64,000 bases of DNA, from NCBI GenBank assembly GCA_021324755.1, contig JAJPIL010000007.1, forward strand, positions 62,001 to 126,000, read 5' to 3'. A program made the translations under genes and the position numbers. The notes under the pieces are model-generated. The model worked only from the letters and a program-made list of their open reading frames with translations. It was not told the DNA's origin and ran no database searches. The stretch is from Pseudomonadota bacterium. GTDB lineage: Bacteria; Desulfobacterota; Binatia; Binatales; Binataceae. Numbering within the stretch: the stretch's first letter is position 1; the number at the start of each line of letters is the position of its first letter. Below are positions 3,354 through 62,099 of the stretch, one piece after another.

Positions 3354-4426
3354 CGCAACTTGAGCGTGCTCAGCGCCAAAAGCGCACATACCACCGACAC
3401 GATCCAGAACCGGACCACAACTTGGGTCTCAGGCCATCCCGCAAGCTCGAAGTGATGGTGGATCGGCGCCATGCGAAAAATTCGTTTTTTCGTGAGTTTG
3501 TAGTAATAGCGTTGGATAATCGTCGAAGCGGCTTCTACCACGAACACGAAGCCCGCGACTATCAGCACGAGCTCCTGCTTGCATAAAACCGCGACCACGC
3601 CCAAAGCAGCGCCCAGAGACAACGCTCCGACATCGCCCATCATCATCGAAGCGGGATAGGCGTTGTACCATAAAAACCCGAGCGAGGCAGCCACCAAGGC
3701 GCTGCAAAAGATGCTAAGCTCGCCCACGCGAGCGACATGGGGAACCTGCAGGTATTCGGCGAACTTCGCGTTACCTGCAACGTAACTGAACGCCCAGTAG
3801 CACGATCCGACAGTCATCACCGGTCCGATAGCCAGACCGTCCAAACCGTCGGTTAAGTTGACCGCGTTCGAACAGGAAACGATCACAAGCGCGGCAAACG
3901 GCACATAAAGCCACCCAAGGTCAGGGTTAACGCGCTTGAAGAAAGGAACCGTCAAGTGGGTGTCGAACTTCAGCACTGCGATCAACACGAAGGAGATAAC
4001 CAACGCGAACAGCGACTGAGAAAAAAGCTTTTGCGGGCCGCTCAAACCTCTGCCTTGGCCTCGGCGCAGCTTGAGCAGGTCATCAACTAGCCCGATTCCA
4101 GCAAAGCTCAGCATGACCGCGATTGCCACCCAAATGTACGGATCTCTCAAGTCTGCCAAAAGCAAGGTGGCCACGAGCGTTGCGGTCAAAATCAAAAGCC
4201 CGCCCATTGTGGGCGTGCCGGCTTTTTTGCGATGACTGACGGGTACCTCGACGCGAATTGTCTGCCCAAGATGGGCCTGTCGAAAGCGGTTAATTAGAAC
4301 CGGTCCTAGCGCCAAGGACAGCGCCAGCGAGCTAATGCCGGCCATCATCGAGCGAAACGTCTCATAGCGTAAGACGTTGAACGCCGGATGGGCTGTATGA
4401 AGCGGGAATAGAAGCATGTAGAGCAT
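3350..4426 (-). CDS. mraY: MraY, phospho-MurNAc-pentapeptide transferase
   Basis: Inner-membrane enzyme that transfers phospho-MurNAc-pentapeptide to undecaprenyl phosphate, forming lipid I. It is about 358 residues with roughly ten hydrophobic segments. The family motifs are present: the paired aspartates in LVDDLLKLRRGQ (near residue 116), NAVNLTDGLDGLA, and the histidine cluster in MAPIHHHFE near the C terminus. A TTG at 4429 is possible, but the ATG at 4426 shares one base with the murF stop (TGATG) and is preferred. It is coupled to murF upstream and murD downstream. Confidence 0.97.
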   Translation of the reverse strand: MLYMLLFPLHTAHPAFNVLRYETFRSMMAGISSLALSLALGPVLINRFRQAHLGQTIRVEVPVSHRKKAGTPTMGGLLILTATLVATLLLADLRDPYIWVAIAVMLSFAGIGLVDDLLKLRRGQGRGLSGPQKLFSQSLFALVISFVLIAVLKFDTHLTVPFFKRVNPDLGWLYVPFAALVIVSCSNAVNLTDGLDGLAIGPVMTVGSCYWAFSYVAGNAKFAEYLQVPHVARVGELSIFCSALVAASLGFLWYNAYPASMMMGDVGALSLGAALGVVAVLCKQELVLIVAGFVFVVEAASTIIQRYYYKLTKKRIFRMAPIHHHFELAGWPETQVVVRFWIVSVVCALLALSTLKLR

Positions 4427-5883
4427 CAAAGGTACGTCTTTTTGAGTTCCTCTAAAACTACTTCTAAGCCAACAGCGCGCGAAGCCTTCAGCAAGACCCT
4501 GTCGCCCTCTCGGAGTTGGGTTGCAAGATAGGGCGTTAGCTCCCCAACGCTTGCGAAAACGACGACTTTTGCCTCGTCCATTCCTGCATTTCGTGCTCCT
4601 TGAGCTAATTGTTCGGCAAACTCACCGACTCCCAATAGGAAGTCGATTCCGAGCTCGGCAACCAGCCGACCTATCTCTTGATGAGCCGATTGTGACATTT
4701 CGCCGAGCTCCCGCATGTCGCCTAACACGGCGATCCGGCGGCTGGCGGGCAGCGAAGCCAGTGTTCGAAGCGAAGCGGCCATCGAAAGCGGGTTTGCGTT
4801 GTAGGCGTCATTGATGACGATTATATCGTGCCCCAGACGCACCATTTCTCCCCGCATGGAGAGCGGTCTAAACGCACCTAGCCCCTCAGCGATAATCGCT
4901 GCTGGGATACCCAAGGCGTGGCAGAGCGCGGCGCTCGCTACAGCGTTAGCCCGCTGATGAGTCCCCGGTAGAGTAAGGCGTACCCGAACTTTTTCGGTGC
5001 CTACCACGAGCTCGAATTCTTGACCATCCAGGCCAAGCTCGCGCACCCCACCGCAGCGTACCTCTGCCTGTCGATTCGCGAAATCCAGCGAGAACCGCAC
5101 CTGCTTGCCGCCGCGCTGCCTGGCTAGTCGCACGACCTTCGGATCGTCCAGGTTCACCACAGCGACGCCCTGGGGCTTCATCTCGCGCCAGAGCTCGCCC
5201 TTGGCCTGCGCCACGCCTTCCAGCGAGAGCACAGGACGCGGCGCGCTGTTAAGCGAGATCGACCCAGGCGACGGCCTTAGATGGGCAAGCCCAATATTGG
5301 TAATCAAGCCGACGTCAGGATCGGCGATTGCGGTAAGGCGCGCTATCTCGCCCAAAGCGTTCATGCCCATTTCCAAGACGACGACTTCCTCGTCGCCTTC
5401 AAGGTTAAGCAGCGTGAGCGGCAATCCGACCAAGTTGTTTTGACTGCTTTCCGTAGCAGCGACGGGTCCGCTTAAAACTTTGCCGACGGCTGTGCGGCAA
5501 ATCGTGGCAGCCATTTCTTTGGTACCGGTTTTACCAGCAGTACCTGTTATCGCAGCCACGCGTGCCTTAAGCTTCTGCCGGGCGAATCGTGCAAGCTCGC
5601 CGAGCGCGTGCAACGAGCTCTGCACCCGTAACACCGGTCGGTTCACTCTCTCGGGCAGGCCTTCGATCGGCCACCGCTCGACCACTGCCGCCGCCGCCCC
5701 GCGAGCGAAGGCCTGCCCGACAAAGTTGTGGCCGTCGTTGCGCGGTCCGCGCAATGCCACAAAAAGCTCGCCTCCCTTTACCTTGCGCGAATCGGTCGTC
5801 GCGCCACAAAAAGTCTTTTCTCCGGCATCTGCGATCAGCGATGCATCGGTCACGCGCGCGGCTTGTTCCACCACTATGCGCAT
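4426..5883 (-). CDS. murF: MurF, UDP-MurNAc-tripeptide:D-Ala-D-Ala ligase
   Basis: Cytoplasmic ligase that adds D-Ala-D-Ala, completing the UDP-MurNAc-pentapeptide. The P-loop is GTAGKTGTKE, followed by the carbamylated-lysine region and the motif NDAYNANPLSM that is characteristic of MurF. At 485 residues it is slightly longer than average, with no domain obviously added. The ATG at 5883 overlaps the murE 3' end by 10 bases. It is part of the uninterrupted dcw operon. Confidence 0.96.
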   Translation of the reverse strand: MRIVVEQAARVTDASLIADAGEKTFCGATTDSRKVKGGELFVALRGPRNDGHNFVGQAFARGAAAAVVERWPIEGLPERVNRPVLRVQSSLHALGELARFARQKLKARVAAITGTAGKTGTKEMAATICRTAVGKVLSGPVAATESSQNNLVGLPLTLLNLEGDEEVVVLEMGMNALGEIARLTAIADPDVGLITNIGLAHLRPSPGSISLNSAPRPVLSLEGVAQAKGELWREMKPQGVAVVNLDDPKVVRLARQRGGKQVRFSLDFANRQAEVRCGGVRELGLDGQEFELVVGTEKVRVRLTLPGTHQRANAVASAALCHALGIPAAIIAEGLGAFRPLSMRGEMVRLGHDIIVINDAYNANPLSMAASLRTLASLPASRRIAVLGDMRELGEMSQSAHQEIGRLVAELGIDFLLGVGEFAEQLAQGARNAGMDEAKVVVFASVGELTPYLATQLREGDRVLLKASRAVGLEVVLEELKKTYL

Positions 5884-7409
5884 ACCTGAAGTCCGTTTTT
5901 TTTGAGTACCTGTCGGACTACTTCGCGGTCGTCAAAGCTTAGTTTTCGATTACCGATTAGCTGGTAGGTTTCGTGCCCTTTGCCAGCGATCAGCACAACG
6001 TCGCCAGCCCAGGCGTTGAGGATCGCGTGCTCGATTGCACTGCGCCGATCAGGTTCGACGAAGTAACCCTTTTGAGTTCGCGCTATATCTGCAGGGTTCG
6101 AAAGGCGAGGCAAACCGAGCTGAGCGATGCCGCTTTCTATCTGGTGAATAATCGCGAGCGGATCCTCACCGCGAGGATTGTCTGAGGTGATAATCGTTAT
6201 GTCCGCAAAGCGGCCGGCGATTTCCCCCATAATTGGGCGTTTGCCCGCGTCTCGCTCGCCTCCGCAGCCAAAGACGCATAAAACTCTCCCCTTGGTCAAA
6301 CGTCGCAAGCTTTTGAGAACGACCTCTAATGAATTGGGCTTGTGCGCGTAGTCGACAACTATCGTAAGGTTCGAGGCATTCGGCACGATCTCCATCCGAC
6401 CGGGCGCGCCGCTACAGCGCCTAATTCCCTCCAAAACGGCCTCATGGGGTATGCCGAGGGCAAGGCTAGTAGCTATCGCCGCAAGAACGTTTGGCAAGTT
6501 GACCTCGCCCAGAAGCGGTGAGATGACGGTCAACTTTTTGCCGAAGGCTACTACTTCTGCGCGAAGATTTGCGCGGTCAGCCTCGAAGTTTAGCGCCCTT
6601 ACGTCGCATGTGGCGTCGAACCCGAAGCTCACCTTGCGCACACCGACCGCGTCCAAGATGCGCTTGCCGAACGGGTCGTCGCCTCGCACTACGACCACCG
6701 GATCGGATTTTGACGTGCGAGGCAAGATCTCGGTGAAGAGCTTGAGTTTCGCCGCAAAATAGTTTTCGAGCGTCCCGTGAAAGTCCAGATGGTCTCGCCC
6801 CAAATTGGTAAAGACAGCGGCGCGAAAGTGTAGCGCGTCGGCCCGGTGTTGAGCCAAGCCGATCGATGAAATCTCGGCCGCTACCCAACGAATCCCAAGT
6901 TGCTCCATCGTGGCAAGCTGCGACTCGAAATCGATCGCCTCCGGAGTCGTCAAACCTTCGTAAATGCGCTTAGCCCCGGCGAAAGCGCCCAGGGTTCCAA
7001 TAATGCCCGCGGAAAAACCGGCGGCTTCGAAGATGGATCGAAGCAAAAAGCACGTCGTGGTCTTGCCGGCGGTTCCAGTGACACCGATAAGTTCGAGCCT
7101 TTGGCTGGGCGCGCGGAAAAATCGCGAAGCCACCGATGCCATCACAAGGCGCGGCTCGCTACACTCGACCACCGTCGCCGCGGGGCGCACCTTGCCGCCC
7201 CACCCTGTCTCCGTCACCACCGCATGCGCCCCGCGCGACAAAGCTTCGTTCACGTGTTGTCGACGTTGCTCCAGATTTCTTGCCAAAGCAAAAAAAAGGT
7301 CGCCCTCGGAAACCCTTCTGGAGTCGTAAGTCAGACCGGCGACTTCGACGTCAAAGTCGCCTTGAACGCGCACAATCTCGAGACCGTCAATAAGTTCACG
7401 AAGTTTCAC
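5874..7409 (-). CDS. murE: MurE, UDP-MurNAc-dipeptide:meso-diaminopimelate ligase
   Basis: Adds the third stem-peptide residue. The P-loop GTAGKTTT lies near residue 116. The substrate-selecting motif reads DNPRGEDP; in this family DNPR marks meso-diaminopimelate as substrate, whereas lysine-adding enzymes differ, so the organism should make DAP-type peptidoglycan. The length of 511 residues is typical. The ATG overlaps the ftsI stop by four bases (ATGA). Confidence 0.96.
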   Translation of the reverse strand: MKLRELIDGLEIVRVQGDFDVEVAGLTYDSRRVSEGDLFFALARNLEQRRQHVNEALSRGAHAVVTETGWGGKVRPAATVVECSEPRLVMASVASRFFRAPSQRLELIGVTGTAGKTTTCFLLRSIFEAAGFSAGIIGTLGAFAGAKRIYEGLTTPEAIDFESQLATMEQLGIRWVAAEISSIGLAQHRADALHFRAAVFTNLGRDHLDFHGTLENYFAAKLKLFTEILPRTSKSDPVVVVRGDDPFGKRILDAVGVRKVSFGFDATCDVRALNFEADRANLRAEVVAFGKKLTVISPLLGEVNLPNVLAAIATSLALGIPHEAVLEGIRRCSGAPGRMEIVPNASNLTIVVDYAHKPNSLEVVLKSLRRLTKGRVLCVFGCGGERDAGKRPIMGEIAGRFADITIITSDNPRGEDPLAIIHQIESGIAQLGLPRLSNPADIARTQKGYFVEPDRRSAIEHAILNAWAGDVVLIAGKGHETYQLIGNRKLSFDDREVVRQVLKKNGLQVCA

Positions 7410-9493
7410 GGCAAAAAGCCTCGAGAAATGGTCCGGTCGGCATCTGCACGAGCGCGATCGAACGAGAAACGATTGTGCAAAGGTGAGCCTTCGACTGAAC
7501 CCGCTAATACTATTTTGATTCGGCGAAAAGCTGGAATCGGCGACCCTGGGGCAGGAGATTGCGCCACCACATAGCCGTCTCCGGAAACGTCGAGCTCAAG
7601 ATTTAGGCGATGCGCCAGCTGAAGCGCGTGACGCAAGCTGAGGCCGGCAAAATAGGGAACGCACCAACCTTCCAGAGACGATACGAAATCCGGTTTACCA
7701 TCGTGAAAATTGCGGATGTTTGACGAACCTGCAAGCGCAGAAGATTTGTTCGCGGAGTTAAGGAGCAAGCCAAATGGCGCAAGGTCAGCTACCTGGTAAC
7801 TTGCCTCGGTTACCGAAGGCTGCCCAACGGGCAAGCCCAGGCGGTCAAGTGCACTGGCAACGATCGTTTTGAAGGCCGGAGCGGCGACGAGTCCCCCGAA
7901 TTGGCCGTGTCCCACGTCCTCCAGCATCACCAACACGACCAGACGAGGCTGGTCAGCGGGCGCGATGCCGACGAACGAAGCGACAAGCCGGTCTTGATAG
8001 TACGCGTGAGTGACAGGGTTCACCATCTGCGCGGTACCGGTTTTGCCCGCGATAGCAATGTTCGGGATAGAGGCGAGACGGCCGGTGCCAGCGGGATCTT
8101 CCACTACCGCCCGCAACAGTCGGGCCACTTGATGAGCGGTTGTCGGAGAGATGACTCGTCGAACGATTTGCGGCTTCGCGCGAAAGATTCGCCGCCCTAG
8201 CGGATCGTAGATTTCACGCACGACAAAAGGCCGAAGCAGCAAGCCACCGTTGGCGATCGCACCGTAAGCAACGACAAGCTGAAGTGGCGTGACCGCCAAA
8301 CCCTGCCCGAAGCCCTCGTTGGCGAGCTCGACGCGCTGGGCGATCTGCAGCTGTCGGAGGATTCCGAACGCCTCACCGGGAAGATCAACTCCGGTGGGGT
8401 GCCCTAGACCGAAGGCCCGCAACCCGTCGAACACTCGCTTGGGGCCTAGGGCAAGGGCAATTTTCGCCGCTCCGATGTTGGATGAGCGTGCGATGATTTC
8501 CTCTAGCGTTAGCCACTGATGGGCACCATGGTCGTGAATGGTTGCGGCTCCGAGACGCCATGCGCCATTTTCGCAGAAAATCCTGCTCTGGGGAGTTACG
8601 ACGCGGCTGTCGAGCGCAATGGCGGCAAGCAAAGGCTTTATGGTCGAACCTGGCTCAAAGACGTCTTGTACAGCGGGATTATGTAGCCGGTCGGATGGCT
8701 CTGAGTCGTCCGCGCCGACGGTGGCCATCGCCAGTATTTCACCGGTGAAAGGATCCAAGACTATCGCGGTGCCTCTTTTTGCCCGATAGTACCGTACCCG
8801 TTGGCGCATTTCTGTTTCGACTAGCGCCTGCAGCCGGCTGTCGAGGGTGAGGACCACTCGCGCCCCAGGGCGCGCCTCGCGCAGGACCTCCGGGCTGTCG
8901 AGCACGAAGCGTCCGAGCGCATCGCGCTCAATCTCCAGGCTAAGCGGGTTTCCTCGAATCGCTCGGTCATAGCGCATCTCTACCCCGGAGAGGCCCTGGC
9001 TATCCGTCCCCGCCATCCCAATCACCGCCGCGGCCAGGCTCCCCTCCGGGTAAAACCTTTTGAACTCGTTTACCGAACCGATTCCAGCTAGGCCAAGCTG
9101 GTCGACAGCCCATGCAGTTTTTGCGTCTACCTGACGGGCAAGCCAGATAAAGTTTGCTTTACTTTTAAGGCGCGCGCTGAGCTTGTCCGAATCGATCCCC
9201 AAAATTCGGGCCAGTTGAACAAGCTGCTCTCTTCGGTTTTTGCTCCATACCGTTCGAGGACGTGCGTACAGTGAGCGTGCGGGAGCCGAAAGAGCTAAGA
9301 TAATGCCGTTTCGGTCGACGATCGGTCCCCGTGGGGCGCTGACCTCGACCTTCTCGGTGTGCTCGGAATGGGCGAGTATTTGCAGGCGTGAACCGTCGAT
9401 CAGGGCCAGAAGCACTACACGGCCAGCGATAAGCACGAACAGACTAGCCAGCAAAATGCTCAGGATCGCAATTCGTCGCCGGCGCTCTTCCAT
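7406..9493 (-). CDS. ftsI: FtsI (PBP3), septal transpeptidase with C-terminal PASTA domain
   Basis: Class B penicillin-binding protein that cross-links septal peptidoglycan. One N-terminal transmembrane segment (about residues 8-31) anchors it, and the bulk lies in the periplasm. The transpeptidase motifs are STIK (Ser283 nucleophile), SSN (337-339) and KTGT (from 484). Residues from about 600 to 665 form a PASTA domain (GWCVPYFAGLSLRHAL ... VVAQSPAPGSPIP), which enterobacterial FtsI lacks but which occurs in deltaproteobacteria and Gram-positives. The length of 695 residues reflects that extra domain. The start codon lies 7 bases after the ftsL stop. Confidence 0.95.
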   Translation of the reverse strand: MEERRRRIAILSILLASLFVLIAGRVVLLALIDGSRLQILAHSEHTEKVEVSAPRGPIVDRNGIILALSAPARSLYARPRTVWSKNRREQLVQLARILGIDSDKLSARLKSKANFIWLARQVDAKTAWAVDQLGLAGIGSVNEFKRFYPEGSLAAAVIGMAGTDSQGLSGVEMRYDRAIRGNPLSLEIERDALGRFVLDSPEVLREARPGARVVLTLDSRLQALVETEMRQRVRYYRAKRGTAIVLDPFTGEILAMATVGADDSEPSDRLHNPAVQDVFEPGSTIKPLLAAIALDSRVVTPQSRIFCENGAWRLGAATIHDHGAHQWLTLEEIIARSSNIGAAKIALALGPKRVFDGLRAFGLGHPTGVDLPGEAFGILRQLQIAQRVELANEGFGQGLAVTPLQLVVAYGAIANGGLLLRPFVVREIYDPLGRRIFRAKPQIVRRVISPTTAHQVARLLRAVVEDPAGTGRLASIPNIAIAGKTGTAQMVNPVTHAYYQDRLVASFVGIAPADQPRLVVLVMLEDVGHGQFGGLVAAPAFKTIVASALDRLGLPVGQPSVTEASYQVADLAPFGLLLNSANKSSALAGSSNIRNFHDGKPDFVSSLEGWCVPYFAGLSLRHALQLAHRLNLELDVSGDGYVVAQSPAPGSPIPAFRRIKIVLAGSVEGSPLHNRFSFDRARADADRTISRGFLP

Positions 9494-9500
9494 CGCTTCT

Positions 9501-9791
9501 CTAGCGGACCTCGATAATCTGTTCGGGGTTCGGTGGCCTCATCTCGTAGCGCGACGCCAAAGCTCGCAATCGCTCTTGGGAGCTCAAGCGGGCAACTTCG
9601 AGCCTGAGTTCCCGGTTTTGTTCCTGCAGCTTTGCCATCCGTTGCCTTAGCTCCGAAAGTCGGTAGCCTTCACGTAAGACCTCAAGGCGCAAAAGCAAAA
9701 TCGCGAAACACAGGATCAAGACGCAAGCTGCGGCTAAAGCCTCCGGAAGTTTCGACACATTCTTTGCGCTGTTCGCACTTTTCCGACTCAT
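9501..9791 (-). CDS. ftsL: FtsL-like divisome protein
   Basis: Small bitopic division protein of 96 residues. A short charged N terminus is followed by one membrane helix (ALAAACVLILCFAILLLR, about residues 18-36). Then comes a heptad-like leucine-rich coiled coil (LSELRQRMAKLQEQN), which is the layout of FtsL. Sequence conservation in this family is weak, so the call rests on layout and on position between rsmH and ftsI, where FtsL is always found. The ATG overlaps the rsmH stop as ATGA. Confidence 0.87.
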   Translation of the reverse strand: MSRKSANSAKNVSKLPEALAAACVLILCFAILLLRLEVLREGYRLSELRQRMAKLQEQNRELRLEVARLSSQERLRALASRYEMRPPNPEQIIEVR

Positions 9792-10720
9792 GGAGCAACC
9801 CGTTCAAGACATCGCAGACGCGCGCTTCGAGCCCGGGGGTTATGGGCGATCTCGGCGGCCGAGGGTCGTAAGAGCCGCCCGGCCGGAAAGCCGAAGCGCT
9901 TACTGGCGACGAGCTGAGCAAAGGTCGTCTTGACCGGCCTATCTTCAAGGGAGTGATACGCGAGCACGACCATCCGCCCGCCTACCGAAAGCCTTTGTGG
10001 TGCCTTATCCAGTAGCCAGGTAAGGCTCTCCAGTTCCGAATTGACCGCGATCCGCAATGCCTGGAAGGTACGGGTCACCGGATGAATACGAGCGTGTGGA
10101 TGGCGACCGACTGCCGCTTCGACTACCTCTCGCAACCTGCGGGTCGTGGTAATTTCACCGTGACGCCGAGCATTCACAATCGCTCGAGCGATCTTGCGTG
10201 CGGCAGGCTCTTGGCCGTAAGCCCAGATAATTCGGGCAAGCTCTGCTTCGCTCAGGCGATTTACTAGATGCGCGGCAGTTGTCGACGACCTGCGGTCCAT
10301 CCGCATGTCGAGCGGGCCGTCATGGCGAAAGCTGAATCCCCTCGATGGATCGTCTAGCGCAAAACTGCTCATTCCCAAATCTACGATGAGAGCGTCGATT
10401 TCACTAAAGCCGCACACCTCCAGCGCCTCGTCGAGGTCGGCGAAATCTCCGTGATAGAACGAAACGCGGCCTTCAAACCGTGCAAGAGTTCTGGCCGCCA
10501 CCTCGAGCGCACTCTCGTCTCGGTCGATTCCTAGCAAGCAGGCTGCCGCAGGCGCTGCCTTGAGCAGTGCAGCGGCGTGTCCGCCGGTGCCAACCGTTGC
10601 ATCGACGATGCGCAAGGGCCTACAGGCAGATAAGAGGCTCACCACCTCTGCTGCCATCACAGGCTCGTGCACCGCTATGGCACCCACCTGACGTTCTTGC
10701 TGTATCGCTGAGCCACCCAT
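9788..10720 (-). CDS. rsmH: RsmH (MraW), 16S rRNA m4C1402 methyltransferase
   Basis: SAM-dependent methyltransferase that modifies N4 of C1402 in 16S rRNA. The N-terminal HEPVMAAEVV and the SAM-binding loop DATVGTGGHAAALL are diagnostic, followed by the GDFADLD and DLGMSSFALDDPSRGFSF motifs of the family. The C-terminal half carries YHSLEDRPVK. The length of 310 residues is normal. The ATG at 10720 is preceded by GAGGAAG and sits 12 bases after the mraZ stop. Confidence 0.97.
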   Translation of the reverse strand: MGGSAIQQERQVGAIAVHEPVMAAEVVSLLSACRPLRIVDATVGTGGHAAALLKAAPAAACLLGIDRDESALEVAARTLARFEGRVSFYHGDFADLDEALEVCGFSEIDALIVDLGMSSFALDDPSRGFSFRHDGPLDMRMDRRSSTTAAHLVNRLSEAELARIIWAYGQEPAARKIARAIVNARRHGEITTTRRLREVVEAAVGRHPHARIHPVTRTFQALRIAVNSELESLTWLLDKAPQRLSVGGRMVVLAYHSLEDRPVKTTFAQLVASKRFGFPAGRLLRPSAAEIAHNPRARSARLRCLERVAP

Positions 10721-10732
10721 TGCCCTACTTCC

Positions 10733-11182
10733 TCACAGCCCCAAAGTGCCTCGAAAACTGCGGTCTCCCACCTTGTCGAGCGCGATTTCCCATACCCGTT
10801 CAAGCGCCCGCCGGTCCCACAGCTGGAAATGGTCAGGCATCGCAGAAAATGCCACTTCATGGCTCAGACCAGCGTATTCGCGCAATTTCGGCGGAATCAG
10901 TATCCTCCCTTGCCGATCGACTGGGACCTCATAAGAACCGCCAACAAAAAACATCTGAAAAAGCTGCAAATTAAGGTCAAAAACACCTTTTTGCCGAAGC
11001 AAAGTCACCAAGCGTTCCCACTCGTTCGGCGGATAAATCTCTAAAAACCGTTCGTTCTCGATCTTGGAGTTGGTAATGTAAACCCGGTCGAACTTATGGC
11101 TTTGCAAAGCGTCACGAAAAACAGCCGGCAGGCTCACCCGGCCCTTTTCGTCCAACTCCCGGTCGTAACGTCCGCTGAACAC
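10733..11182 (-). CDS. mraZ: MraZ, AbrB-fold transcriptional regulator of the dcw operon
   Basis: DNA-binding regulator that controls its own operon. It has two AbrB/SpoVT-type half-domains, the first with RYDRELDEKGRVSLP and the second with VPVDRQGRILIPPKLR. The open frame reaches a GTG at 11218, but that codon lies inside the operator repeats. The GTG at 11182 gives VFSGRYDREL, where family members start, and a normal length of 149 residues. It is the first gene of the minus-strand dcw cluster. The TGGG repeats immediately upstream suggest autoregulation. Confidence 0.95.
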   Translation of the reverse strand: MFSGRYDRELDEKGRVSLPAVFRDALQSHKFDRVYITNSKIENERFLEIYPPNEWERLVTLLRQKGVFDLNLQLFQMFFVGGSYEVPVDRQGRILIPPKLREYAGLSHEVAFSAMPDHFQLWDRRALERVWEIALDKVGDRSFRGTLGL

Positions 11183-11192
11183 CTTCGCGTCG

Positions 11193-11230
11193 CCCCAATC
11201 TTCCCCACAACATCCCACTACATCCCACTG
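11193..11230 (-). promoter_or_regulatory. MraZ box: four TGGG direct repeats at 10-bp spacing
   Basis: Read on the minus strand, the motif TGGG recurs four times with an exact 10-bp period, as AGTGGGATGT, AGTGGGATGT, TGTGGGGAAG and ATTGGGGCGA. On the plus strand the CCCA copies are at 11194, 11204, 11214 and 11224. E. coli MraZ is known to bind such TGGG direct repeats separated by about 5 bp. The first two copies are identical over 10 bases and the fourth is the weakest. The array ends about 8 bases before the mraZ GTG at 11182, so bound protein would cover the promoter/leader. A TTGACT at 11237-11232 could be the -35 hexamer. Confidence 0.85.
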
Positions 11231-11540: not shown

Positions 11541-12317
11541 ATGAAAGTTGTCAGCGTTACAGCTTATGGGTCACCAGGCTCGAGGCAGACTGGACGTCGC
11601 CGGAGATCGCCGTCGTTTGCGCTTGCTATAGCGTTTTTTATAGCAATTTTGCTTGTCTACTTTCGTGTTAGTTTCGCGCTTCAAAATAAAGGAGCAAGCT
11701 CGTCGCCTGTTTCGACGGCCTCTGAACCTGCGGGTGTTGTGGTTTGGGACTTCGAGCGAGATACGCCTGGGCAGATTCCGAAGGGCTGGAAGAGCGTCGC
11801 CGGTAATTGGGCTGTAATTGCCGACCCTGAAGCTCCCACGCTACCAAACACTTTTGGCCTAAGCCCCGGAAGGTTTTTCGCTTCATTGTTGCGATTGAAC
11901 TATTACTACCCACTTGCCGTGGTAGATAACTCCCCGAGTTACAGAAATTTTAGCTTGGAGGCTTGGTTCCGGACGCTGGGCGGAAGATTGGACTGTTCGG
12001 GAGGTTTGGTATTCGGCTATCAAAATCCGAACGACTATTTTGTGATGGAGGCTGGATGTCCCACTGACCGCATAGCTTTGCTTCGGATGGAAAAAGGTCG
12101 CCTATCGATGTTTGCGGACACGGTGGTTGCCATAACTCCTGGAACCTGGTACCGGCTGAGACTCGATGCAGTTAGGCAGCGGCTTACCTGCTTTGTCGAC
12201 GATCGAGTCGTCCTTAGGGCGAGCCAGCCAGACCTTAGGCCGGGAAAAATCGGCCTTTGGGCACACGCCGACGCTGAGGTTCGATTCGACGACATAAAAC
12301 TTGCGCCCATCAGATAA
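11541..12317 (+). CDS. Membrane-anchored protein with a LamG/ConA-like (DUF1080-type) domain
   Basis: I do not recognise a specific family member. The protein has 258 residues. A basic N terminus (RQTGRRRRSP) is followed by one hydrophobic helix (about residues 26-47), giving an anchored exported protein without a lipobox. Residues from about 67 to the end look like a single concanavalin A-like jelly-roll of the DUF1080/LamG type: WDFERDTPGQIPKGW, SLEAWFRTLGG, GLVFGYQNPNDYFVMEA, then GTWYRLRLDA and GKIGLWAHADAEVRFDDI. Such domains bind or act on carbohydrate or protein at the cell surface. It is transcribed away from mraZ and preceded by a MraZ-like repeat, which would fit a cell-envelope role. 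Function is not established. Confidence 0.7.
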   Translation: MKVVSVTAYGSPGSRQTGRRRRSPSFALAIAFFIAILLVYFRVSFALQNKGASSSPVSTASEPAGVVVWDFERDTPGQIPKGWKSVAGNWAVIADPEAPTLPNTFGLSPGRFFASLLRLNYYYPLAVVDNSPSYRNFSLEAWFRTLGGRLDCSGGLVFGYQNPNDYFVMEAGCPTDRIALLRMEKGRLSMFADTVVAITPGTWYRLRLDAVRQRLTCFVDDRVVLRASQPDLRPGKIGLWAHADAEVRFDDIKLAPIR

Positions 12318-12751: not shown

Positions 12752-15205
12752 TTACTTCTGTTGAGGCGGGCGTTTGTTTGGTTGCCGGTTGATTGAAATT
12801 ACGACCTTACGGCTGACAACGCTTGCCCCACTTTTGAAGGCTCCACCCTCGCCTGCGACCTCCCAGCGCTTTTTGAGTTTAGCTTCAGGCAGCTCGATAG
12901 CGTCAATTTTTTCATCCAGGAGCCTACGCAAGTAACCGGTTAGGTCATCGTCTAACACCTTCACGAGAGCCTCAGTCTGCGCGGCTTGGACAATTTTCAA
13001 AAAGCCTTCAAGTCGTCCCTTTTTATCGTGAATTACGATCAAACGGCGGATCGCTTTTTGCGAAAGCTGCACGAGTTTGGCTTCCAGAGCTTGCTTCAAA
13101 CGGCTTTGCAAGTCGTCCACGCTCGGCAAACTTGCCCCGAGCACGTAGCCACATGACAGACAGCGAGGCACTCGATCAAGCTCGCTTAGCTCCTCACTGG
13201 CACATTCCGGCACCGCCCTTGCCATCGCCTCGAGCTCGCAGGCGAAGTTTGGTGCCTTAGGCGGACCCAGCACTTCGATCGAATCTAGCCGCGCCAGCGC
13301 TTCAAGCCAGGCCCGGGCGTTTTCGATCTGCCGTTTTAGCTTCTGCAGCTCCAGCAGCCATTGTCGGTGTAAAACGCGATAGTGCTGCGCGTAGTCAACC
13401 TTAAACCGGGCAAAGCGCGCCTGAAGCGCCTCATAGGCGGTTCTGCTGTTACCCAATACTTTGAGAGTGAGTTCCGCAGCCAACAAACGCGCGTCGGTTC
13501 GCAATTTCGCCGTCGTCGCTGCCAAACCTTGAGCGGTGGTTGTCTCCTCTGCCGGCTCGAGCAAGCCCGATCCTTCCAGATACGCACGCATTTGCAACGT
13601 TTGGGGCACCAGCGTGGCGATCTCCTTTAACGCGCGGAAGGCGTCAAAAGCTTGCGCCAGTCGTTCGCGATTTTCAACGCAAGCCGCCTCTTCGATTATT
13701 GCTCTCGCGCCTCGGCTTACAGCTTCGACGAAATTGTCGAAGTCTTGCGCGTATCGGCTCAACGCCTCGGTTCGCCAGTTGGGGCTCAGCGACTTGAGTG
13801 TTTCGTCGATCGAGTGCGCTACAAGTACTGCGTTGTCGATCGTTGTCGCCAATCTGCCCAATGACTCTCTAAGCTCTTGTTCGCTCTCGGTCTCACCGAG
13901 CGCCGGGTCCAGTCGCTTGAGTAACGGTACTGCCGCGTTGTACGACGCGAACATTTCCCCTTCGAAAAGCTCAGGATTGAAGCGCGCGAAGTGTCCGTCG
14001 AAGCGGACTGCTCCATTCGAATGTTGTGCGAGATGGCGCAAAATTGAGTACGCGCTCTGCTCAAGCTCTTCGTTCGGGTCTGGAACGTAGTCGGCCAGCT
14101 CGTCGAGCCCGATTTCGCGTGCGTTTAGATACGCAAGCACCAGCGAATCGATGATTGCGAGTGCGAGATTTTGGGTGACCCCATCCAAAGGCTTTGCGGC
14201 CGCGCGCGCAGTTTTGAATGCGGTGCGTCCCTTTTCGCCCAAAAGCGCGTCCACTCGGCGGCGCACGGCTTCGCTTACGAGCAAATCGGCGGGCTTGAGC
14301 AAACGACGCAACTTTAGAAGCGGCCGACTACCTGGTCCAAAAAGTATTTCGGCCACTAACTCCGCAAGCCCTCCTACCCCTAAGCCCGCCGGCATCAAAC
14401 CTCGAATGACGTGCTTTGTTTGGGGATGGAAAGGAAAGATTTGCTGTGTACCGGCGACACTTCGCTGGCTAGGCGTATAAAAGCGCTCCACGATCTCCTT
14501 CGCCTGGGGCTTGAGTTCGCGCCCTCGGGCCAGGGCCACTTCTACCAATTCGTCTTCGCTGACTGGCCCAACTTTCAGGGAGATTGCCCAGTCCGGCGGA
14601 GCGCTTCTCGTTGCTACGAACAGAGTAACCTTCGGGCTGCGCGTAACCTTCAGTATTGACTGAAACGTATCGAAAAGTTCGAGCAGTGAAGCCGGCTCCA
14701 ATTCGCCGAAATCGATAGCCAACGTAAGGTCTCGCACACCCGCTCGTCGCGCTTCTCCCAACGCTACGCTCAAGCCCTGGGCTGGACCCAGTTCCTGCCA
14801 CAGTCGCGCATCGCGGCGGCTTCCGCCAAGTTCTCGCGCTATCGAGTGAAACAGCAAAAAATCAAGTTGTCCCATCTCCTGCGGCCCGGACAGGTCCAAA
14901 CCCAAAGTGAGCGTTCTACCATTTCCAATTTCATGGGTCGCAGTCGTATACCTCGTGGCCAAAACAAAGTTTAGAAAGTGGGTTTTCCCTGTATCCGGAG
15001 GTCCCCATATCCAAAAAGACGCTCTACTTTCGCGCATGGACGCGCTAATCGTTTCAAGGGCTTGGGCTGCTGAAGATGTCAGGATGTATGAATTTACTGT
15101 CTGGGGCTCGGGACTGGTTTCGAGACGGAGTCGCTTTGGAAGAAAAGCCTGCCGTGTCAGGAGATCTTCAAGTGCGGGCAGCGTGGACTCTTTACAAACT
15201 GTCAC
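12752..15205 (-). CDS. Solitary BREX/PglY-like (DUF6079/DUF499-type) large ATPase
   Basis: An 817-residue P-loop ATPase of the large STAND/AAA-like group that includes PglY, BrxC, DUF499 and DUF6079 proteins. Walker A is GPPDTGKT (residues 68-75) inside FWIWGPPDTGKTHFLNF. A Walker B-like strand is LTLAIDFGE (Asp165, Glu168). The motif IFPFHP (256-261) matches the (Y/F)PxHP signature that follows the ATPase core in those families. Residues about 440-640 are charged and helical, probably coiled coil. One CxxC (Cys681, Cys684; RCLSCGY) sits near the C terminus. The GTG start at 15205 has no clear ribosome site, so the true start may be slightly downstream. No methylase, nuclease or other BREX gene lies next to it, so any defence role is inference. 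Confidence 0.65.
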   Translation of the reverse strand: MTVCKESTLPALEDLLTRQAFLPKRLRLETSPEPQTVNSYILTSSAAQALETISASMRESRASFWIWGPPDTGKTHFLNFVLATRYTTATHEIGNGRTLTLGLDLSGPQEMGQLDFLLFHSIARELGGSRRDARLWQELGPAQGLSVALGEARRAGVRDLTLAIDFGELEPASLLELFDTFQSILKVTRSPKVTLFVATRSAPPDWAISLKVGPVSEDELVEVALARGRELKPQAKEIVERFYTPSQRSVAGTQQIFPFHPQTKHVIRGLMPAGLGVGGLAELVAEILFGPGSRPLLKLRRLLKPADLLVSEAVRRRVDALLGEKGRTAFKTARAAAKPLDGVTQNLALAIIDSLVLAYLNAREIGLDELADYVPDPNEELEQSAYSILRHLAQHSNGAVRFDGHFARFNPELFEGEMFASYNAAVPLLKRLDPALGETESEQELRESLGRLATTIDNAVLVAHSIDETLKSLSPNWRTEALSRYAQDFDNFVEAVSRGARAIIEEAACVENRERLAQAFDAFRALKEIATLVPQTLQMRAYLEGSGLLEPAEETTTAQGLAATTAKLRTDARLLAAELTLKVLGNSRTAYEALQARFARFKVDYAQHYRVLHRQWLLELQKLKRQIENARAWLEALARLDSIEVLGPPKAPNFACELEAMARAVPECASEELSELDRVPRCLSCGYVLGASLPSVDDLQSRLKQALEAKLVQLSQKAIRRLIVIHDKKGRLEGFLKIVQAAQTEALVKVLDDDLTGYLRRLLDEKIDAIELPEAKLKKRWEVAGEGGAFKSGASVVSRKVVISINRQPNKRPPQQK

Positions 15206-15616: not shown

Positions 15617-17467
15617 CTACATGGATTGCTCGATGTGTCTTTTCAGTGCGGCCGTCCATCGCTGATGAAAAGCGGGGAGATCGACGCTCCCCCAGGTGCC
15701 CTTTATGTCAGCGTCAATCGCATCAATATGGTTAAGAGCCCTCGTGAGCTCTTCGATCGCTTCCAGAGCGCGCTTTTTTCCGGCGGCGTTTTTTTGCTCG
15801 AGCGCTTCCAGGTATGCGGCCAACGCTCTTAAGCTTCGCGCGCTGTAGCGCCAAAGCTCGCCCTCTGCCCGAACCATCTCCGAATCGACAGAGTTTGCTA
15901 CCTGGGACGCGATTTTTGCGGCCTTGTCGTAATGCACGGCGGCAAGTCTTAGGGCTCGGCCCCTTTGGCTTCGTAACGAAAGCGGGATTTTATCAACGCG
16001 GAGCATGTCGCCGTAGGTTGGCGCCAGACGCGAAGCCCGCACGACCAGCGCATACGCGTGCCTCATTTCATCCACTTGCGCGCGGTGTCTTTGTCGTGCC
16101 GTTTCGGCCAAGATGGTTTGTAAGCCGGACCTACAGCTTCTTGCCCCACGAGCGAATGCGAGCAGGTTGGCTGGGTATGCCAGAACACTGTAAGCACCGA
16201 AGGTGAGGCAAGAGATGCTGCTTAAACCGAGCCGTTGGTAGGCGATCAAATCGCGCTCGATCACGGAAGGCATCATCAAACCTATACCCGCGAACAATGC
16301 GGCATCTGCATAATACTCGAAAACGTGGCCGCGGCCAGAGAATATTTCGACATAATGTTTGAGCGTCTCGTAGTAGCGTGCATTAGTATGGCACCGCGGA
16401 TCATCGATCGCATGCGCGTAGCATCGCTCGCGCGGAGCCCATTCGAACTCCACGTTGGGGAGCGGCGCAAGTTGCGGATCGGGTTCGAGCGTATCGTGGT
16501 AAGCTAAGTAAGTAACGCAAAGCGTATCACTGTGGCGCGCGACGGCTTCGGCGATTGTATTGATAAGGCGCATGTACTGAAGCTGTGGCGAGAGCCTAGC
16601 GCACGATGGACATGCGCACCAAGCGCCGCGCCAAACGTCTGCTCCCCAAACGTGTAGCAGGCGGTTTTCCGGATAGTCTCGCAGGTAAGCCAATGCGTTG
16701 GCGGTCACAATTTCTAGCGCCTGCGGATTCGAAACGCATAGGTTGCCTTTTGGGTTGCGCTCGCCCGCTTCATCCATCGGAAAAAGTTGTTGGTTTTCTT
16801 CGAATCGCTCTCTTTCGAGCAGCAGCTGTACAATATGGCCGCCGTACTCCGGCTCTATTCCTCGCTGCCGCAGGTCGGCCACAAGCTCGTCGATTCGCGC
16901 CTTGGTATCGCGCGCGTGTCGTATGTAGAAAAAGCGGTTTATTCCCAGCCACGCCATCCACTCGATAAATTTGCGGTCGTGAGCCAAATGCAGGCTCATC
17001 AGGCGTGGGTCTTCGTAATGCCAGGTCATGATGTCGGAAACGAACGCGCGACGCTTAAAAGCGGGCTTAAACGTCCAGTCTTTGAGCGTCCAGGGAAAGC
17101 TTCCCTCGAGAGAGGGAATGCGAAGATCGCCGTCGACGGATAGCTCCGCCCCTAGTTGGCTAAGCGCGCAGAAGACAGCATGAACCAGAGCCGATTCGTC
17201 GCCGCCCGTAATCAAAACCGTTCGCGACTGGACCCGTATGCTGAATTCCCCTGGGCAGATTGTCAGGGGAGACCGGGCGAGCTCGTATCCTAGTACGAGC
17301 TCGAAGGGTCTTACTTCGGGTGAACAAGCTATCCTAACGGTGGAATGCGTGGCGGCTTCAATCGTGCCCGCTAACTTGTTGGCCGCGAATTGAGCTGCCT
17401 CGCCCGCGTCTTCGGCTCTCCAAACCGTCAGTTCTGCTCGGGGGTGCGTCGTCATTTTGATGCTCAT
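15617..17467 (-). CDS. DUF4838 glycoside-hydrolase-like protein
   Basis: A 616-residue protein of the DUF4838 type, related to alpha-glucuronidase/hexosaminidase-like enzymes. The N-terminal ~110 residues resemble the accessory alpha/beta domain of such enzymes (FAANKLAGTIEAATHSTVRI, ending VLITGGDESALVHAVFCALSQLG). The middle is a TIM-barrel-like region with WHYEDPRLMSLHLAHDRKF and the family hallmark LHVWGADVWRGAWCACPSC, the tryptophan/cysteine cluster seen in DUF4838 proteins. The C terminus is helical. I see no signal peptide, so it may be cytoplasmic. The neighbours are unrelated. The substrate is unknown, and hydrolase activity is inferred from the family only. Confidence 0.7.
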   Translation of the reverse strand: MSIKMTTHPRAELTVWRAEDAGEAAQFAANKLAGTIEAATHSTVRIACSPEVRPFELVLGYELARSPLTICPGEFSIRVQSRTVLITGGDESALVHAVFCALSQLGAELSVDGDLRIPSLEGSFPWTLKDWTFKPAFKRRAFVSDIMTWHYEDPRLMSLHLAHDRKFIEWMAWLGINRFFYIRHARDTKARIDELVADLRQRGIEPEYGGHIVQLLLERERFEENQQLFPMDEAGERNPKGNLCVSNPQALEIVTANALAYLRDYPENRLLHVWGADVWRGAWCACPSCARLSPQLQYMRLINTIAEAVARHSDTLCVTYLAYHDTLEPDPQLAPLPNVEFEWAPRERCYAHAIDDPRCHTNARYYETLKHYVEIFSGRGHVFEYYADAALFAGIGLMMPSVIERDLIAYQRLGLSSISCLTFGAYSVLAYPANLLAFARGARSCRSGLQTILAETARQRHRAQVDEMRHAYALVVRASRLAPTYGDMLRVDKIPLSLRSQRGRALRLAAVHYDKAAKIASQVANSVDSEMVRAEGELWRYSARSLRALAAYLEALEQKNAAGKKRALEAIEELTRALNHIDAIDADIKGTWGSVDLPAFHQRWTAALKRHIEQSM

Positions 17468-18710: not shown

Positions 18711-19430
18711 ATGAGGTACGCGATCTTCGACATCGAAACCCGAATCGACAAAACGCTTGTCAATGAGGTCTTCTTCCCCCAGGCAGGCCTCAGCGACGAC
18801 GAGGCTTTGGCCCGATTTCGGGACGACTTGATGCGCGAACAAGGCAACGACTTTCCGCCGCTTGCTTTCCATATTCCAATCTCTATCGCGGTGGGCGACG
18901 TCAGCGCTGACCATAAACTTTGCAGGGTCGAGAGCCTGGCGCGCGATCGTTACTCGGAGCGCGAGCTAGTGCGCGAATTCTGGGAAAGGCTTGAGCGGTT
19001 CGACGGGTGCCTGGTAAGCTTCAACGGACGGCGCTTCGACCTGCCGGTTTTAGAGTTGCAAGCTTTTCGTCACGGTATCGTTTGCCGTTCGCATTTCTCC
19101 GAGTCGGGGCGGCGACGAAGATACGACATAGCTCGCCACCTGGACCTCCATGATTTCATTACCAACTACGGAGCGTTTCGCTTAAGGGGCGGAATGCACG
19201 CCCTTTTGCGCATGATCGGTCTGCCGGGCAAGGAGTCGATGGACGGAGGCAAAGTGCAAAAGCTTTACGAACAGGGCCGACTTGAAGAGATTCATCGCTA
19301 TTGTCGCAGCGACGTCATCAAGACCTATTTTTTGTTTCTGCGAGTCCAGCTTATCCGCGGCGAGATCAACGAAGCGCAGTACAACGAAGCAAAGCAAGCG
19401 TCCGCCTCGTTTTTGGACGAACTGGTCTAG
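18711..19430 (+). CDS. Predicted 3'-5' exonuclease, PolB-type (DNA_pol_B_exo2 family)
   Basis: A 239-residue DnaQ/RNase H-fold exonuclease of the stand-alone PolB-like type. The first acidic motif is IFDIET (Asp7, Glu9). A second region is LVSFNGRRFDLPVL, matching the ExoII motif NGxxFD. A third is YCRSDVIKTYFLFLR, the ExoIII YxxxD motif. This is the normal arrangement for two-metal nuclease chemistry on DNA 3' ends, though the substrate is unknown. It sits between mrp and a glycosyltransferase gene with gaps of 27 and 29 bases. Confidence 0.85.
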   Translation: MRYAIFDIETRIDKTLVNEVFFPQAGLSDDEALARFRDDLMREQGNDFPPLAFHIPISIAVGDVSADHKLCRVESLARDRYSERELVREFWERLERFDGCLVSFNGRRFDLPVLELQAFRHGIVCRSHFSESGRRRRYDIARHLDLHDFITNYGAFRLRGGMHALLRMIGLPGKESMDGGKVQKLYEQGRLEEIHRYCRSDVIKTYFLFLRVQLIRGEINEAQYNEAKQASASFLDELV

Positions 19431-61683: not shown

Positions 61684-62099
61684 GCAACGAGCGGCCAGAA
61701 CGGAGAAAAACCGGCTACGAGCCTTCCCACACGGAGCGTACTCACAGCCGTGAGTAAAGACTTCAAAGTGCCGCAGCCAATTTTAAGCCCGTAACCGTTG
61801 GCTGGCGGCTTCTTGAAAGATGAGGTGCGTTTGACGGTTATTCAGAAGTTTGCCCCATTCGGTCTCCTTGGAGAAGGTGGCTGAGAAAGAGCTTCAAGGC
61901 GAAAGGCGCCAACCACTCCTTCCGTTGCAGAGGGAACAGGCCCGAGCAGGTATACGATTTGCCGTTTAAACCATTGACGCTCTCACGCTTTTTGTCGAGT
62001 TTGCGCACTCGACGCATCCACTGTTGCGTAGCGCTTCGCTCAAGTATTAGTTTGGCTACCGTAGCCGTGATACGAATTTTGAAGCAAGGATAGACTGCG

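Follow-up and report, generated by a model that had tools for sequence, protein, structure and literature searches.

The DNA analysed here is a window of 64,000 nucleotides, positions 62,001 to 126,000 of contig JAJPIL010000007.1 (assembly GCA_021324755.1, family Binataceae), and the gene in question is an open reading frame with a GTG start codon at window positions 12752–15205 on the minus strand, which encodes 817 residues. We read its product as a domesticated, BREX-independent and vertically inherited derivative of the BREX protein BrxC that has become an ATP-binding scaffold without efficient hydrolysis; taken as a whole, this statement seems to us somewhat more apt to be right than wrong. 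It is based on computed homology, losses, distribution, synteny and selection. The source genome (G000) is a 3.07-Mb assembly of 29 contigs, 95% complete, in which the gene is present in a single copy (search at E ≤ 1), with a G+C content of 0.558 against 0.556 for the window. The open reading frame, the GPPDTGKT and FPFHP motifs and the long helical region named in an initial annotation of this DNA are all present; the motifs are conserved and the helices are found in both of the structural models described below. The features of the gene are listed here. Residue counts are over 29 sequences, one of them the G019 remnant and two of them from named loci, which possibly repeat one of the G genomes; G020 is a genome of the same family that also carries BREX genes.

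12752–15205, minus strand: orphan BrxC-like AAA+ protein, 817 residues (open reading frame; DUF6079 match; three-block BrxC alignment; AlphaFold2 model)
14981–15004, minus strand: Walker A, GPPDTGKT, residues 68–75 (Gly73 29/29, Lys74 28/29, Thr75 29/29)
14558–15076, minus strand: AAA+ core, residues 44–216, predicted fold of BrxC or ORC/Cdc6 type (model; VIA-align matches 9zll_A and 9zdx_A)
14708–14713, minus strand: Walker B, Asp165 kept (29/29), Phe166 in place of the catalytic Glu
14423–14437, minus strand: FPFHP motif, residues 257–261 (colinear with FPFQP in G020 BrxC and FPVHP in full-length DUF6079 proteins)
14198–14557, minus strand: predicted AAA+ lid helices, residues 217–336 (secondary structure of the model; boundary set by eye)
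13973–14197, minus strand: predicted winged helix, the first winged helix–turn–helix (wHTH1) of BrxC, residues 337–411 (helices and two short strands in the model; residue 411 corresponds to BrxC 552)
13214–13972, minus strand: helical, coiled-coil-like arm, residues 412–664 (both models)
13118–13213, minus strand: three-cysteine module, Cys668, Cys682 and Cys685 (29/29 each; like the cysteine pattern in full-length DUF6079 proteins)
12911–13117, minus strand: C-terminal block, residues 697–765, the most conserved part (modal fraction; alignment to G020 BrxC)

Relatives were identified with profile searches. The window protein matched DUF6079 in Pfam-A at 25.1 bits (cut-off 23) over residues 517–718 and the PADLOC BrxC-PglY model with an E value of 2.4e-6, and of the 18 sequences in the family set, to which the window protein belongs, 16 matched DUF6079 and 13 matched one PADLOC BrxC model at E ≤ 1. 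An NCBIfam Hda match on the P-loop (28 bits) lies far under its cut-off of 194.8. No Pfam match to DUF499 was obtained for the window protein at E ≤ 10 or for the family sequences at E ≤ 1. The kinship with BrxC, PglY and DUF6079 proposed in the initial annotation is supported by Pfam, PADLOC, direct alignment to BrxC and structure. A six-frame search of G000 with DUF6079 (PF19557) did not report the gene, which we take as a limit of sensitivity, and a search of PHROGs gave nothing relevant. Aligned with the family profile, the BrxC of G020 scored 160 bits in total over three colinear blocks, in which orphan residues 28–80, 168–362 and 397–777 correspond to BrxC residues 27–79, 259–478 and 917–1294, respectively; four of the seven reversed controls are listed and reach at most 6.0 bits. 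Identity between the C-terminal parts is about 24–29%. On six full-length DUF6079 proteins the profile of the family scored 23–36 bits, and hhalign returned blocks in the same order as with G020 BrxC. With G020 BrxC as the query at E ≤ 1e-10, only two orphans were matched in 148 genomes of the phylum; one distant archaeal plasmid protein was matched as well.

An AlphaFold2 model built from ten sequences (m8aca86773bd0) has a mean pLDDT of 78.3 and a pTM of 0.51. Foldseek ranked Cdc6, CED-4 and ORC at the top for this model. A second comparison of the Foldseek candidates with VIA-align 2 placed Acinetobacter BrxC first (9zll_A; Z 19.3, root-mean-square deviation 4.5 for 373 residues, model residues 11–411 on chain residues 2–552) and a second BrxC entry next (9zdx_A, Z 18.8), followed by the Cdc6/Orc1 family (Z 14.2). 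Z was 12.3 for the third entry of BrxC, 9zn5, which is a hybrid model. The N-terminal half of the predicted structure thus matches BrxC best, and the predicted model contains a BrxC-type ORC/Cdc6 AAA+ module with the first wHTH. The C-terminal half, modelled alone, has a pLDDT of 81.1 and forms a helical arm; its best match among solved structures (Z 7.2) is within the helical background, and no viral match was found for it at E ≤ 0.001. Sequence searches of solved structures with the single protein, the family profile and the C-terminal profile gave no useful match, the BrxC chains being recovered by fold only.

The coiled-coil arm and the CPxC-bearing C-terminal end of BrxC are both present in the orphan. 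The initial annotation had singled out a CxxC near the C-terminus; it is there, but as a mark peculiar to the orphan it was rejected, because it belongs to a Cys...CPxC motif that is common to all six full-length DUF6079 proteins. The triad, common to the orphan family and full-length DUF6079 proteins (L069–L073 and L097), is placed where the helical arm ends and may be a metal-binding site; it is not mentioned in the BrxC section of a survey of BREX (PMC12839542). Residues 697–765, colinear with the C-terminal end of BrxC, have a mean modal fraction of 0.75 and 17 invariant columns, against mean modal fractions of 0.47–0.64 in the other parts and 0.25 in the tail. According to two further papers, the last 80 residues of Acinetobacter BrxC mediate dimerization (PMC13326643), and the C-terminal segment of BrxC was needed for restriction only, not for methylation, where this was tested (PMC12707154). 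All in all, the descent of the orphan protein from BrxC can be stated with high confidence.

In this alignment the orphan equals a BrxC that is short of about 440 residues in its middle and of roughly 90 more in the stretch from Walker A to Walker B. No counterpart of G020 BrxC residues 479–916 was found in the orphan by profile alignment, the N-terminal module is about 90 residues shorter ahead of Walker B than in BrxC, and the total length is 817 residues against 1200–1300 for BrxC and PglY. Beyond its ATPase and first wHTH, BrxC is described as having an alpha+beta domain and a second wHTH that is proposed to contact target DNA (PMC12839542). The missing middle probably represents this region, as judged from the sequence alignment and the published domain names. 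The second loss is that of the Walker B glutamate: position 166 is Phe in 22, Leu in four, Cys in two and Ser in one of the 29 sequences, and Glu in none. Among the BrxC-like frames of the phylum, 22 of the 30 fetched were inspected, and Walker B ends in Asp-Glu in 21 of them (L092 gave no match); that of G020 BrxC reads VVDEF. Neither the loss of the glutamate nor that of the middle third of BrxC is mentioned in the initial annotation.

The third loss is suggested by the spacing of motifs. From Walker B to the PF motif (IFPFHP at residues 256–261, with Pro258 in 28 of 28 sequences), 88–95 residues were counted in 15 of 19 family rows, against 118–122 in BrxC. These spacings come from a text search, which took the wrong aspartate in L035, L038 and L041 and gave no spacing for L047 and L073; alignments were used instead. 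Between the two motifs, all six DUF6079 frames contain an R-V-K-D-R-F element, which from its sequence resembles, and may be equivalent to, the arginine fingers Lys326 and Arg330 of Acinetobacter BrxC (PMC13326643). In the model of the orphan, an eight-residue loop joins strands beta-4 and beta-5, and the stretch is about 25–30 residues shorter, as estimated from the motif spacing; the arginine-finger element may have been lost. The protein is best classed as a BrxC-derived orphan and not as BrxC or BREX, since four features were looked for and not found: the catalytic Glu of Walker B, the central domains, a length in the BrxC range and, as partners, PglZ and BrxB.

The distribution of the gene was determined with the family profile. 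It is present in 32 of 41 Candidatus Binataceae genomes, two of which hold remnants only (short in both G019 and G029, with stops in the former and one stop in the latter), and in none of 107 other genomes of the class. In a 395-genome sample of the phylum (E ≤ 1e-10), there were two matches outside the family, both to stretches of longer frames (1072 and 1436 residues), one of which (G137:C50) also matches DUF6079. No relative was found in the collections of viral contigs, plasmids and phages searched. An alignment scan of named genomes gave at least 11 loci, in metagenome-assembled genomes titled Candidatus Binataceae, Candidatus Binatus soli, 'Deltaproteobacteria bacterium' and 'bacterium'; a scan of named-genome contigs with a single sequence gave no match. 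PglZ and BrxB were each found in two of the 41 family genomes and had no match in the 95% complete assembly G000, in keeping with the earlier description of the gene as solitary and outside any BREX locus, a statement that for PglX/BrxX covers the twelve Pfam-scanned neighbours, no genome-wide PglX search having been made.

Synteny was examined in 24 of the 30 genomes with more than remnants (G213–G218 were left out). In 21 of the 24, counting genomes in which at least one flanking block adjoins, the gene lies beside the division and cell-wall (dcw) cluster or its conserved flank. The usual site has a block of DUF4838, acyl-CoA dehydrogenase and CoA-transferase genes on one side and a 3-keto-disaccharide-hydrolase-like gene or mraZ on the other; in 16 of the 24 genomes mraZ shares the strand of the gene and is no more than 2.5 kb away. 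The exceptions are G007 and G021 of genus g8, in which the surroundings differ, and G012, in which the gene is on a short contig without markers. An intact gene is missing from 11 genomes. Both flanks, with nothing recognized between them, are seen in four of these (G001, G002, G009 and G016), and remnants at the usual site in two (G019 and G029); in G004, G017, G018, G022 and G024 the upstream side could not be assessed. All 11 retain rsmH, and other dcw genes are retained too. In the 21 genomes the surroundings are a fixed non-defence context, which the initial annotation itself had named as grounds for refuting its reading: as it held, no defence partners are present, but the neighbourhood is more than empty.

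Pairwise identities of the orphan were compared with those of its neighbours. The correlation (rho) was 0.92 with FtsI (11 genomes), 0.80 with the DUF4838 protein (15 genomes), 0.72 with the CoA-transferase (10), 0.63 with the 3-keto-disaccharide-hydrolase-like protein (11) and 0.56 with RsmH (10). Gene-tree splits were shared with the CoA-transferase (7/7), FtsI (6/8), the 3-keto-disaccharide-hydrolase-like gene (6/8), DUF4838 (8/12), RsmH (5/7) and MraZ (4/7); with shuffled labels, the mean numbers of shared splits were 0.28–0.39 and the maxima 3–5. Inheritance is thus largely vertical. The ratio of nonsynonymous to synonymous substitution rates (dN/dS) is 0.23 and 0.21 in two close intact pairs (G032/G026 and G006/G030, respectively), in which the flanking genes have values of 0.08–0.30. 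Higher ratios were obtained for pairs with G034 (0.40 and 0.36) and for G014, whose copy is split and was measured on its second half (0.33). Clusters c11 and c16 (0.88 to 2.1) were dropped as they consist of reverse-strand frames overlapping the Mrp and acyl-CoA dehydrogenase genes. In an alignment of 18 sequences, 54 columns are invariant and the mean column identity is 45%. The gene is under purifying selection where present, yet dispensable.

The architecture leads us to infer nucleotide binding without efficient hydrolysis, C-terminal dimerization and possible contact of the winged helix with DNA. Lys74 of Walker A and Asp165 would bind ATP, hydrolysis would hardly occur, and the protein would act as a ligand-bound switch or a lasting dimer held by its C-terminus, which may scaffold something or contact DNA through the winged helix. 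Of BrxC it retains the nucleotide-binding AAA+ module together with wHTH1, the arm, the cysteine module and the conserved C-terminal block; what is gone is the middle with the alpha+beta domain and wHTH2, the Glu of Walker B and, it appears, the arginine-finger element. Its cellular role would be independent of BREX. In Acinetobacter BrxC, the Walker B substitution E269Q lowered hydrolysis and stabilized ATP-dependent association (PMC13326643). The chromosome-associated ATPase that the initial annotation gave as an option may apply, but efficient hydrolysis looks unlikely.

Several observations weigh against a domesticated, non-hydrolysing BrxC derivative. The loss of the glutamate alone is no proof of lost hydrolysis, and Escherichia fergusonii BrxC E268Q still restricted phage, with no methylation (PMC13326643). 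Homology to the full-length proteins is uneven: in the hhalign comparison the C-terminal block (residues 589–738 on 1016–1174; probability 96, E 3e-9) is the sole significant one, the P-loop and FPxHP blocks having probabilities of 6 and 0.5, and a profile of the six DUF6079 proteins placed 16 of 19 family sequences above the HMMER inclusion line, with L031, L043 and L047 below it. The correlation with MraZ is weak (rho 0.37, 10 genomes), and in six cases the trees disagree with strong support, twice with each of DUF4838, RsmH and MraZ, over where G008, G013 and the G003/G028 group belong. The orphan also evolves faster than FtsI, RsmH, MraZ, the CoA-transferase and DUF4838, and at about the same rate as the 3-keto-disaccharide-hydrolase-like gene (its median identity is 39% against 56% for FtsI in the same 11 genomes); such fast evolution is as in many defence genes. 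The gene is dispensable, with no match in nine of the 41 family genomes and remnants only in two; frames are split in G014 and G025, with an apparent frame break near the start in G034, the two genus g8 genomes hold the gene elsewhere, and no partner gene came to light. These g8 copies (L045 in G007 and L047 in G021) are away from dcw, moved, perhaps once, and kept. Split, frame-broken or fragmentary copies at the usual site are L046 (G014), L054 (G025), L042 (G034), L056 (G029) and L147 (G019), and the broken copies may reflect repeated loss or, in part, assembly errors.

The initial annotation took the gene for its best candidate for an undescribed system, possibly a stand-alone defence. Such an anti-phage protein would use its ATP switch as a sensor, as in STAND NTPases or BREX-related BrxC homologues, with no neighbours needed. 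Its described relatives do belong to defence systems (PMC12839542), its evolution is fairly fast and its loss repeated, and by structure comparison the N-terminal fold of the predicted model is also like that of NLR and CED-4 STAND ATPases, with weak NPHP3_N, NACHT and Avs2 profile matches among the family sequences. The fixed, mostly vertically inherited site beside dcw points the other way, as do the absence of an effector domain by Pfam or PADLOC, the loss of the proposed target-recognition middle of BrxC and the lack of copies in the phage, plasmid and viral-contig collections searched. The analysis supports neither the undescribed system nor stand-alone defence; the latter was rejected as the best reading on synteny and mostly vertical inheritance, and we consider it unlikely. 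Decay of an old BREX system to a functionless remnant would explain the nine genomes without the gene, the two with fragments, the several frame-split copies and the lost catalytic glutamate. It is hard to reconcile with the dN/dS of the two intact pairs, which is close to that of neighbouring genes, with the invariant columns and mean column identity, and with a Walker A retained in nearly every copy, and we give it little credence.

An antagonist or insulator of BREX, in which the conserved C-terminus would pair with an incoming BrxC and poison or tame it as a dominant negative, would suit the conservation of the C-terminal block, since this end of BrxC dimerizes, and the more stable association of the Walker B mutant with ATP (both PMC13326643). 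The rarity of BREX markers as counted within Binataceae (PglZ in 2/41) may also be in line with it, but in G020 an open orphan copy coexists with BREX genes, and the C-terminal identity to its BrxC, about 24–29%, may not permit mixed dimers; we regard such a role as improbable. Slightly less probable still is a function in cell division or peptidoglycan synthesis alongside the dcw genes, with which the orphan would co-evolve; the closeness of mraZ, on the same strand as the gene in 16 of the 24 genomes, suggests it. In the window, an opposite-strand gene separates the orphan from mraZ, genomes without the gene retain rsmH (11/11) and other dcw genes, the genus g8 copy is away from dcw, and the site may simply be stable. 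We therefore retain the domesticated, BREX-independent BrxC derivative. Its more daring version, that BrxC was domesticated early in Candidatus Binataceae as a non-defence, non-hydrolysing ATP-binding chromosome scaffold and, in the boldest form, as a dominant-negative partner of incoming BrxC, is offered tentatively, as a conjecture that we hold to be plausible but doubtful.

If this conjecture holds, BrxC stripped of the middle that recognizes targets would be of use to the cell in its own right. BrxC is a hub of BREX whose individual parts are just beginning to be given functions; a 'minimal BrxC' kept by evolution would show which parts are worth keeping without BREX. The orphan resembles the laboratory Glu-to-Gln mutant used for trapping BrxC dimers and would exemplify the shift of a defence component to vertical, non-defence inheritance. 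Searches for standalone or orphan BrxC, DUF6079 and Binatota BREX or dcw gave no title or abstract describing such a protein, within a coverage that excludes preprints and most subscription papers.

The flanking genes in the window were assigned with Pfam and synteny, and the dcw genes also with tblastn. All are conserved flanks.

4426–10720, minus strand: dcw genes rsmH, ftsL-like, ftsI and Mur ligases (Pfam; tblastn with dcw proteins)
10733–11218, minus strand: MraZ, first dcw gene (Pfam, synteny)
11541–12317, plus strand: 3-keto-disaccharide-hydrolase-like protein, downstream neighbour (Pfam, synteny)
15617–17467, minus strand: DUF4838 protein, upstream neighbour, not a proposed partner (Pfam, synteny)

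Pfam assigned Mur ligase, FtsI, FtsL-like, RsmH and MraZ on the dcw side; the other scanned neighbours are the 3-keto-disaccharide-hydrolase-like protein, DUF4838, Mrp, a PolB-type 3'-5' exonuclease, a glycosyltransferase, an ABC transporter and an aminopeptidase. No DNA methylase, Lon, PglZ or PglX/BrxX was found by Pfam among the twelve window neighbours. The earlier statement that no methylase, nuclease or Lon is nearby thus applies to DNA methylase and Lon; RsmH methylates rRNA, and for nucleases the statement is not strictly correct, as a predicted exonuclease (window 18711–19430, other strand) lies about 3.5 kb from the gene. The DUF4838 protein is a stable neighbour, present in 19 of 28 clustered stretches, and in many genomes its gene is followed by that of an Mrp-type ATPase on the other strand. 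A serpin gene is found within the orphan locus in three genus g15 genomes (L037, L042 and L046). The upstream genes CaiB (CoA-transferase), acyl-CoA dehydrogenase, DUF4838 and serpin were rejected as partners: they are of unrelated kinds and some are kept without the orphan gene. In G020, which has an orphan copy of 842 residues, the 1323-residue BrxC is at a contig start (L121:111–5415, G020:C5; DUF6079 36.8 bits, PADLOC BrxC), and two small genes upstream of it (289 and 164 residues) matched nothing in Pfam or PADLOC at E ≤ 0.01. Another contig (L122, G020:C13) holds PglZ, BrxL, a BrxB match and an open reading frame with an NPPFG methylase-type motif, identified by eye.

Among known systems, BrxC and PglY (9zll and 9zdx) are the closest, sharing with the orphan an ORC/Cdc6-type AAA+ module with Walker A, lid, first winged helix and FPxHP-type motif, the helical arm, the Cys...CPxC module and the conserved C-terminus. 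The orphan differs in its length (817 against about 1250 residues), in the absence of the alpha+beta/second wHTH region and of the Walker B glutamate, in an arginine-finger segment that is apparently missing and in having no PglZ or BrxB match in its genome. DUF499 ATPases (BREX-related, Hma) have a BrxC-like N-terminal AAA+ module and wHTH and are described with wHTH and RRM domains (PMC12839542), whereas the orphan has a BrxC-type C-terminus, no DUF499 match and no neighbouring N6-methylase or helicase. Orc1/Cdc6 initiators share the AAA+ and winged-helix fold (Z up to 14.2), but the orphan has a long helical arm, a cysteine module and no Walker B glutamate, and the BrxC fold is closer. BrxB and BrxF are BREX proteins of AAA+ fold described as inactive STAND proteins (PMC12839542); unlike them, the orphan keeps Walker A, the lid and the C-terminus of BrxC.

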